Positions 4,366-43,996 of a stretch of DNA of 64,000 bases are shown here, one piece after another. The DNA comes from an uncultured Chloroflexales bacterium. GTDB lineage: Bacteria; Chloroflexota; Chloroflexia; Chloroflexales; Chloroflexaceae. Every line of letters starts with the position of its first letter. Position 1 is the stretch's first letter. The translations under genes were made by a program, and so were the position numbers. The stretch lies in contig CAKZSI010000008.1 in assembly GCA_937918935.1 (NCBI GenBank), forward strand, positions 124,001 to 188,000, given 5' to 3'. Below the pieces are notes generated by a model that saw nothing but the letters and a program-made list of their open reading frames with translations, did no database searches and was not told where the DNA came from.

Positions 4366-4418
4366 GGTTTCGCTGCGTGGCCTTCTGGATGGCCGTTCGG
4401 GGGAGGTGCGGATGGCGC
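4366..4418. repeat. 53-bp dispersed repeat, copy 1
   Basis: Starts 5 bp after the dehydratase stop. It matches the reverse complement of 38730-38782 at most positions; shared cores are GGTTTCGCTGCG, GCCTTCTGG and GGCCGTTCGGGGGAG. Confidence 0.75.
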
Positions 4419-10657: not shown

Positions 10658-10804
10658 TAGACGCCCGTGGGGCTACGGCGCACAGCACGAGGGTCAACAC
10701 GGGAAATCGCCTTTCCCCGCGCCTCTGCCCGCCTGGTCAGGCTGCGGCGGCCTCAACCCTGCCCGGAGAGGGATGGGGACCTGGAGTTTGCCATCCCCCT
10801 GTCC

Positions 10805-10837
10805 CTGGGAGGGACCGGGAGGGCTGCTTCCTCCCAG
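10805..10837. repeat. Family-1 palindrome in the yebC / MBL-CNB divergent region
   Basis: CTGGGAGG (10805-10812) pairs with CCTCCCAG (10830-10837). It is followed by a run of A residues on the plus strand. The 379-bp gap also holds two -10 elements for the flanking divergent genes and nothing else that I can identify. Confidence 0.6.
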
Positions 10838-10911
10838 GAAAAAAAACCTCTTTCATCCCCGTGGAGCATGAGTCAATGCCGTATGCAAACAGCGGGCCAG
10901 GAGGCGTTTAC

Positions 10912-23306: not shown

Positions 23307-23357
23307 GAGCTTTCCTCCATACTGTCAACCCCGGCGGGTCACAGGCGCCGAACTCAG

Positions 23358-23497
23358 TAGTCTGTAACGTACGTTTCGTGGCATTTGCACCCCCCTCCCA
23401 GATCCCCTCCTTTGGGGGAGGAGTCTGACTCCCTCCCCCAAAGGGGGAGGGTTGGGGAGGGGGCGGGGGTGTAGCGAAAGACGTTATTTATAGACTA
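23358..23497. mobile_element. MITE-like element, family A copy 1, with 5-bp target duplication
   Basis: A 140-bp element with terminal inverted repeats TAGTCTGTAA / complement of TAGTCTATAA, flanked by identical CTCAG pentamers (23353-23357 and 23498-23502). The interior is C-rich then G-rich and can fold back on itself. A 139-bp copy lies in opposite orientation at 40281-40419. No coding potential. It separates the PIG-L and NeuD genes. Confidence 0.85.
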
Positions 23498-38729: not shown

Positions 38730-38782
38730 GCACCCTCCGCATCTCCCCCGAACGGCCGCCCAGAAGGCTGCGCAGCGAAACC
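38730..38782. repeat. 53-bp dispersed repeat, copy 2 (inverted)
   Basis: Reverse complement of 4366-4418 with a handful of differences. The 651-bp gap between the flavoprotein and Crp/Fnr genes holds this repeat, the two hairpins and the doubtful small frame. Confidence 0.75.
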
Positions 38783-39728: not shown

Positions 39729-39897
39729 GGGCCGGGGCCCGGGGAAACCCGGTTTCCCCTCCCTTCACCCCCAGGGCCGGGCTACGCCGGTCCTTGCGGG
39801 CCGGGGCCCGGGGAAACCCGGTTTCTTCTCGCTTCACCCCCAGGGCCGGGCTACGCCGGTCCTTGCGGGCCGGGGCCCGGGGAAACCCGGTTTCCCC
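39729..39897. repeat. 69-bp tandem repeat, about 2.5 copies, each carrying a family-2 palindrome
   Basis: Units begin at 39729, 39798 and 39867, exactly 69 bp apart; the third is cut short after the palindrome. Each starts GGGCCGGGGCCCGGGGAAACC and holds GGGGAAACC-C-GGTTTCCCC (mutated in unit 2). The array fills most of the 310 bp before the DUF2892 gene. Confidence 0.9.
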
Positions 39898-40247: not shown

Positions 40248-40280
40248 AGTCATTGTTACGGGATCGCTCACGTGGTTCGG

Positions 40281-40419
40281 TAGTCTGTAAACAACGTCTT
40301 TCGCTACACCCCTGCCCCCTCCCCCACCCTCCCCCGCCGGGGAGGGTAGCCGGCGTCTCCCCTCGTTGGGGGGAGGCTGGAGGGGAGCGGAAAGGCCACG
40401 AAACGTACTTCACAGCCTA
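40281..40419. mobile_element. MITE-like element, family A copy 2 (inverted)
   Basis: A 139-bp element, reverse-complement homologue of 23358-23497. It starts TAGTCTGTAA; flanking pentamers are TTCGG (40276-40280) and TTCAG (40420-40424), a target duplication with one change. The right flank contains the stop codon (complement TGA) of the Nudix-like gene, so insertion was just at the gene's 3' end. Confidence 0.85.
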
Positions 40420-40420
40420 T

Positions 40421-40975
40421 TCAGGCCAACTCCACGAGCAGTTCCAGCACCACGGCGCGGCACTGGAGGCACTCCAGCCGTTCCAGCAACGCCCGCAACC
40501 CCGCCCGGTCGAAGCTGAGCGTCTCGTGGGGCAGGGTTGGCGCCCGGGCGGGATCAATCGAGGCCACCACACCGAAGAGCACCTGGTTGGAGAACGAACT
40601 GTTGATCGCCCAGCCCTGCTGGTTCAGCGGGCGCAGGGTGGTAATGGCCCCTGCTGGCAGGCCCAGTTCGCGGGTCAGGATGGCGGTGGCCGCCGCCAGG
40701 TGAGTCTGGCCGGCGGGGAGCCGGCCCCCCGGCAGGTCAAGGGTGGCGCGCCCGAGGCCGGGCCGAAACTGAGGACGGGGTAGTAGCAGACGCCCCGCCT
40801 GGATCGGGGCAACAATCAGCGAAGGGACCCGCTCGACACGCCAGTAGTCAAGCGGGCGTCCCTGCTCGTCGCGCCAGCGTTCGGCGATCAGGCGCACCCA
40901 GGGCGACTCGATGGTGACGATGGTCTCGCCGCGCTCCCAGGCGGGGCTGTCGGGTGAGTGGTTGTGGGCGTTCAC
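40421..40975 (-). CDS. Nudix-fold protein with degenerate catalytic box
   Basis: A 184-residue protein. The start is GTG 40975, with AAAGGAG upstream. The sequence from SLIVAPIQAGRLLLPRPQFRPGLGRATLDLPGGRL to LTRELGLPAG follows ADP-ribose-pyrophosphatase-like Nudix proteins. However the Nudix box reads GGRLPAGQTHLAAATAILTREL: compared with GG-x3-E-x-x5...REUxEE, the REU segment becomes AIL and only the last glutamate survives, so metal-dependent hydrolysis is doubtful. It may be a binding-only protein or regulator. Its stop codon lies in the target duplication of the adjacent MITE-like element. Confidence 0.75.
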   Translation of the reverse strand: MNAHNHSPDSPAWERGETIVTIESPWVRLIAERWRDEQGRPLDYWRVERVPSLIVAPIQAGRLLLPRPQFRPGLGRATLDLPGGRLPAGQTHLAAATAILTRELGLPAGAITTLRPLNQQGWAINSSFSNQVLFGVVASIDPARAPTLPHETLSFDRAGLRALLERLECLQCRAVVLELLVELA

Positions 40976-41261
40976 GGATGCTCCTTTAGTGGCTCATGCG
41001 GCCACGCTGCGTCCCCAATGGTGTTGTTCCAGATTCGTGAGGGTCTGAACCTCCCGCACCCTACCCCTGGGGAGGAGTGTGAGGCCCACGGCGGGTGGCC
41101 GTACCCGAAACATATCTCATGTGCGAAAGGGTGAGGACTGCACACTGCCCCCTCGGTGCGCGGTGAGGCCCGTGGCGACGGTGCCCCCAACAGATGTGAA
41201 CGGTTTTTCCTGGGAGGGCTGCGCGCTCGCAGGCCCTCCCCAGGAGTTCCGGGAGTCGCGT
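40976..41261. other. 286-bp gap with a family-1 palindrome
   Basis: No gene is seen. CTGGGAGGGC and GCCCTCCCCAG (about 41210-41243) form an imperfect hairpin directly 3' of the thioredoxin gene. Confidence 0.5.
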
Positions 41262-43870: not shown

Positions 43871-43935
43871 GGGGAACCCGGGTTCCCCTGCGCCCCGGCC
43901 CGCCGGGAGGGTCTGGGAGGGCAAAGCCCTCCCAG
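43871..43935. repeat. Adjacent family-2 and family-1 palindromes
   Basis: 43871-43888 is the perfect 18-bp palindrome GGGGAACCC/GGGTTCCCC. 43913-43935 is CTGGGAGGGC-AAA-GCCCTCCCAG. Both lie between the tusA-like and dsrE-like genes. Confidence 0.85.
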
Positions 43936-43996
43936 GAACATGTTTATTTCCGTTGTTGTGTGGCAGAACCGGATTGTTGAATGAGGAACCCGACCG

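Follow-up and report, generated by a model that had tools for sequence, protein, structure and literature searches.

The window, the whole 64,000-nucleotide stretch analysed here, carries two short inverted-repeat elements without coding content, each with separate open reading frames on either side. Copy 1 has a PglD-like hexapeptide transferase gene on one side and a PIG-L deacetylase gene on the other, and copy 2 lies at the 3´ end of a minus-strand ORF. Both elements belong to a family that we call class A, and their features are as follows.

23353–23357, no strand: left target duplication of copy 1, CTCAG (pentamer read; insert-free site in the sister genome G002)
23358–23497, plus strand: class A MITE copy 1, 140 bp, with ends TAGTCTGT...ATAGACTA, arms of ~30 bp and a GC-rich palindromic core
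23388–23465, plus strand: core 1 of copy 1, palindromic and GC-rich (core profile match, contig C8 147388–147465)
23498–23502, no strand: right target duplication of copy 1, CTCAG (pentamer read; insert-free site in G002)
40276–40280, no strand: left target duplication of copy 2, TTCGG (one mismatch to the right pentamer)
40281–40419, minus strand: class A MITE copy 2, 139 bp, with ends TAGTCTGT...ACAGCCTA, opposite in orientation to copy 1
40313–40389, minus strand: core 1 of copy 2 (core profile match, contig C8 164313–164389)
40420–40424, no strand: right target duplication of copy 2, TTCAG (includes the TGA stop of minus-strand ORF 40421–40975)

Re-reading of the sequence bore out the positions, ends and flanking pentamers given for both elements in an earlier sequence-only reading. 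The whole-length homology in opposite orientation that it described also holds, as pairwise alignment of the two copies head-to-head gives 114 identical columns of 143 and a score of 78, whereas 500 shuffles average 10.3 and reach at most 17. The two copies are the longest pair in an inverted-repeat search of the window. Both fold back more strongly than shuffled sequences (z −7.1 for copy 1 and −3.4 for copy 2), and the Rfam search of the window returned no match. The TGA stop of the ORF beside copy 2 occupies 40421–40423 on the minus strand and thus lies inside the right pentamer, as had been claimed. The description of this gene as Nudix-like is unsupported, since Pfam gives no match to the 184-aa ORF at E ≤ 0.001.

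Class A is far larger than the two-copy family of the earlier reading, an impression that arose because the window is small. A search of the own genome (G000; 4.6 Mb in 85 contigs) with copy 1 returned 47 rows, among which at least 40 distinct places match at E < 1e-15. With the query itself left out, the genomic matches are 73–86% identical to copy 1, and the best of them are 77–83% identical over the whole length. Alignment of 42 own-genome copies yields a clear consensus. The end motif TRGTCTGTRAA occurs at 233 sites in the genome with at most one mismatch, compared with 62 sites for the reversed control pattern, and of 26 unpaired end motifs inspected, nearly all belong to decayed MITE copies and a few are solitary or match by chance. 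A core profile finds 14 copies on contigs C8 and C30 (0.39 Mb), from which a total of ~160 copies per genome is estimated by extrapolation rather than by direct count. Intact elements measure 109–143 bp and have TRGTCTGTRAA inverted repeats at both ends, ~30-bp arms that pair with each other, and a palindromic core. The copies are mostly intergenic, with one at a gene end. Class A is a real MITE family, ordinary and known in kind and new in sequence. Most own-genome copies are old and decayed, and at 75–83% likeness among themselves they do not point to recent transposition here. This divergence suggests that the family is old and inactive in the own genome and younger in the relatives G002 and G003.

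The insertions duplicate 5 bp of target. Both ends can be read in 24 own-genome copies. In these, the fraction of pentamer positions identical on the two sides is 0.625, compared with 0.402 for permuted right flanks (z 5.8; 0 of 2000 permutations), whereas flank lengths of 2–4 and 6–10 are not significant in the same test. CTNAG is the preferred target, and at its free middle base the two sides are the same in 75% of copies (25% expected). Agreement is above the permuted level at positions 1, 3 and 5 individually, with 0.79 against 0.45 at position 1 and 0.67 against 0.37 at position 5. Because positions 1 and 5 also exceed permutation, the duplication comprises 5 bp and not a 3-bp TNA within C|TNA|G. 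The same test again gives z 5.8 in G002 with 30 candidate pairs, some of which are probably not true elements. G002 elements nearer to the consensus have perfect duplications that vary in sequence (among them GTTGC, ATGAT, ATAAT and CTTAC). The 5-bp duplications first proposed from two copies thus extend to further copies in both genomes. A preference for stop codons was considered and not adopted: a stop lies in the duplication in 4 of 20 elements and at 164 of 1902 motif sites, which is suggestive only, as the gene calls are crude.

Relatives lack both window insertions, which answers the comparison of empty sites that the earlier reading had proposed. At the site of copy 1, G002 has the same flanking genes without the element and one pentamer, a difference of exactly 145 bp. 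Copy 2 is absent from the corresponding site in both G002 and G003, where the adjoining gene keeps its end together with a single pentamer (AATCAG, compared with TTCAG in the window). The other flank has diverged, so that this site is less clean than that of copy 1.

The core of copy 1 (23388–23465) is common to MITEs with other ends. Searched against relatives, the consensus matches over its full length in G002 and G003 alone; in the other genomes the matches are limited to the central ~78 bp, with identities of up to 96%. In related genomes this core 1 is present at 88–96% identity between three further sets of ends, which makes four kinds in all. Apart from class A, of which variants occur in genus g4 (G283, G007 and G022), these are class B (CAATACCTTTCA...TGAAAGGTATTG, flanked by CGGCTAGAAC twice; G001 and G039, with one copy in the own genome at L107:1143–1293 on contig C13), class C (GAAGCTGTCTGAAAAG...CTTTTCAGACAGCTTC; G014, G023 and G311) and class D (AGGGCATGTGCAAAGTC...GACTTTGCACATGCCCT; G008). 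The class C MITEs that bear core 1 have IS5-family ends and TNA-type flanks, and their parent was found in G311 as an 862-bp insertion sequence with identical ends GAAGCTGTCTGAAAAG (L266:816–1677), which encodes an IS5-family transposase (NF033580, E 5.6e-66). A class C insertion sequence of 865 bp is also present in G022 (L264:915–1779). For class D, the ends are similar to those of an ISAs1-type element at L082:870–2191 in the own genome. In G000 and G002, ~50 of 58 core matches have a recognisable class A end. In genus g9 and G004 the core is solitary or arrayed, often with GCCCCC...GGGGGC boundaries; genus g9 has arrays at L145 (G148) and L142 (G232), in which the GC-rich core lacks transposon ends and recurs with a period of ~125–370 bp. 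In a sample of 300 genomes of the phylum, matches to the core at E ≤ 1e-8 are almost confined to Chloroflexaceae.

Conversely, class A ends surround other cores. A scan of all GTDB-representative genomes, which may omit records close to the own genome, found CTNAGTRGTCTGTRAANNNNGTYTYY in 11 stretches, ten from the Chloroflexaceae MAG SKW209 and one from Candidatus Chloroploca sp. Khr17. Four of the SKW209 elements contain a different palindromic core 2 (GTCATGCTGAGCG...GGGGTGACA), and the Candidatus Chloroploca element (L178) has class A arms around a third core, core 3. G003 and G002 have core 2 within class A arms, with the matching duplications CTCAG, ATCAG and CTGAT, whereas G001, G007 and G022 have it without these arms. 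Comparison of these sequences shows arms and core to be separate modules and gives good support to an unusual exchange of ends and hairpin cores across Chloroflexaceae. The modularity of core and ends was missed in the sequence-only reading.

Class A elements are frequently found in company. Several are arranged head to tail, separated by just 5 bp, and G002 contains three copies in a row with CTCAG between. The pentamers of two pairs read ATTAC/GTAAG/ATTAC (L280) and CTAAT/CCAGG/CTAAT (L298). In both, the outer pentamers match and the inner one differs, which indicates that core 1 and core 2 were moved together as a 281-bp pair. At L295, ATCAG is present three times, as expected from insertion into the duplication of another element. 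In four cases a further MITE, class E, is nested in a class A core. Pairs and nesting are plausible routes to core exchange, although the route itself is inferred.

Class E is a MITE of ~172 bp with ends TTCTCAGGTGTAGGGTTTTTCG and duplications of ~9–10 bp (e.g. ATGTAGAGAGT). In G002, 0.79 Mb of sequence contains 14 copies, frequently within GC-rich hairpins. The sites recorded are the following.

G002:C1:89029–89203, class E site
G002:C2:67243–67415, class E site
G002:C7:189791–189966, class E site
G000:C30:88262–88435, class E site

At L112 (G000:C30:126378–126650), a class A copy is split by a small element with ends ATACCAATTTCA...TGAAATGGTAT.

The earlier reading had described a non-autonomous transposon mobilised by a transposase encoded elsewhere. 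The non-autonomous inverted-repeat element stands, with its many copies, duplications and empty sites, but no transposase with these ends was found. Neither the 1.9 Mb of sequence from the genomes examined nor the surroundings of the 26 unpaired own-genome end motifs contain an autonomous class A element, and pairs of class A ends 450–4000 bp apart with duplications enclose no intact one. The insertion sequence with the same ends that had been sought was likewise absent from searches with three DDE profiles and the Y1 profile. In the own genome, PF01609, PF13359 and PF13586 give no candidate except an unrelated ISAs1 relative with other ends. The PF01609 candidates are ISAs1-type elements only, with ends CAGGGCTTGAGCAAAGT and not class A ends; the own-genome example already mentioned (L082, on G000:C56) has these ends and is apparently frameshifted. 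PF13359 matches a degenerate, sub-threshold, stop-interrupted gene in G002 with TTATCGAGATTT repeats, again with other ends, and a fragment in G311. The PF13586 matches are the class C IS5 elements of G311 and G022, whose ends are not those of class A, and no IS5-type gene passes in G000, G002 or G003. The Y1 transposase profile PF01797 has no match in G000, G002, G003 or G004 and a weak one in G001. Draft assemblies tend to lose multi-copy insertion sequences.

These observations are very probably explained by a high-copy class A MITE family of Chloroflexaceae with 5-bp duplications and a preference for CTNAG, separable arms and core, a putative DDE transposase acting in trans and possible core swapping in pairs. 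The transposase, lost from or unsampled in the own genome, would bind the arms, excise or copy the element and join it to a 5-bp staggered cut. New insertions would frequently fall within or next to the end of a copy already present and so form tandem pairs, the outer ends of which could mobilise both together. Cores may then be swapped by recombination or template switching in pairs, or by insertion of one palindrome into the centre of another.

The CTNAG target resembles the C|TNA|G target of eukaryotic NuwaII elements, for which duplications of 3 and 5 bp are not distinguishable (PMC4482050), and the class C MITEs combine core 1 with IS5-family ends and TNA-type flanks. Class A might accordingly consist of IS5-family MITEs of the IS1031/NuwaII type with a 3-bp TNA duplication inside C|TNA|G. 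This is unlikely, as the left and right flanks co-vary at positions 1 and 5, all five bases are duplicated without mismatch in cases such as ATAAT, GTTGC and CTTAC, and in G000, G002 and G003 the PF13586 and PF13359 searches offer only the sub-threshold, interrupted G002 gene with its different ends. It is considerably harder to regard the copies as REP/BIME-like palindromes spread by a Y1 (TnpA-REP/RAYT) transposase, with TAGTCTG ends and pentamers that are incidental. The long GC-rich palindrome does stand alone or in tandem without class A ends in other Chloroflexaceae such as G148, G232 and G004, and this reading may still apply to the free-standing core. RAYT-like elements, however, usually leave no target duplication. 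The class A insertions have 5-bp duplications, most core matches in G000 and G002 adjoin a class A end, no Y1 transposase was found in the four genomes G000, G002, G003 and G004, and the duplications and empty sites contradict such an origin for the window copies. Least credible of all is retention for a host function, as terminators or mRNA-stabilising hairpins copied by gene conversion or duplication instead of transposition. The strong foldback, the mostly intergenic positions and the copy at a gene end would fit; the unrelated neighbourhoods with target duplications, the clean empty sites and the decay of the G000 copies, which show no clear sign of retention, do not.

The preferred reading, transposition of class A MITEs in trans, was also compared with known systems. 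Tn3 ends begin with GGGG, and class A has no 38-bp repeats of this type, its ends being TRGTCTGTRAA, so that membership in the Tn3-derived TIMEs was rejected. Class A works like these elements, by 5-bp duplication and composites, without being a member. TIMEs, which measure 262 bp with 38-bp Tn3-type repeats, share with class A the 5-bp duplications, conserved ends with variable cores and two-copy composite (mosaic) elements that move as one (PMC4133298); class A differs in its TRGTCTGTRAA ends, ~30-bp arms, 140-bp length, far higher copy number and tandem pairs 5 bp apart. Bacterial MITEs such as RUP, NEMIS/Correia, ERIC and Nezha (PMC3733652) are likewise short, gene-less, intergenic and high in copy number, with inverted-repeat ends, hairpins and a target duplication, whereas class A has a 5-bp CTNAG duplication and interchangeable cores. 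The IS5-family insertion sequence of G311 and its MITE form (L266 and L138) have the same core 1 and a similar YTNAR target, but they have GAAGCTGTCTGAAAAG ends, TNA-type 3-bp flanks and a known transposase (NF033580). A derivative of IS5 (IS1031 group) would have a 3-bp TNA duplication, but in class A the outer pentamer positions are duplicated too; the C|TNA|G targets of IS5/PHIS elements resemble CTNAG and differ in duplicated length (PMC4482050). REP/BIME repeats are also palindromic, intergenic and found in arrays, whereas class A, compared with REP/BIME and RAYT systems, has target duplications and mobile-element ends and no Y1 gene in the four genomes named above. The literature searched, an incomplete set, contains no published Chloroflexaceae MITE family with these ends and no bacterial element with a 5-bp CTNAG duplication.

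MITE families are usually defined by their ends and interior as one unit. Here, ends and palindromic interior have separate histories that are demonstrable in both directions, and the parent insertion sequence is known for one frame. A shared interior is thus no evidence of a shared transposase, and the origin and change of MITE interiors become directly testable in a bacterial clade whose genomes each hold hundreds of copies. A broader possibility, which we put forward tentatively, is that an ~80-bp hairpin module enters the centres of unrelated MITEs, by itself or by template switching, and is carried by several transposases (IS5-type, ISAs1-like and the class A enzyme). One set of ends would then gain successive hairpins, and the palindromic intergenic repeats of Chloroflexaceae would form a second layer of mobile DNA.

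Three other repeats were observed in the window. A dispersed inverted pair at 4366–4418 and 38730–38782 comprises 53 nt, is 87% complementary and GC-rich, and has CGCTGCG ends. A palindromic, terminator-like sequence, CTGGGAGGG...CCCTCCCAG, is present at 10802–10843, 41204–41245 and 43905–43938, with similar repeats elsewhere in the genome. A 69-bp GC-rich unit is repeated twice in tandem at 39729–39866, with 96% identity between the two units.
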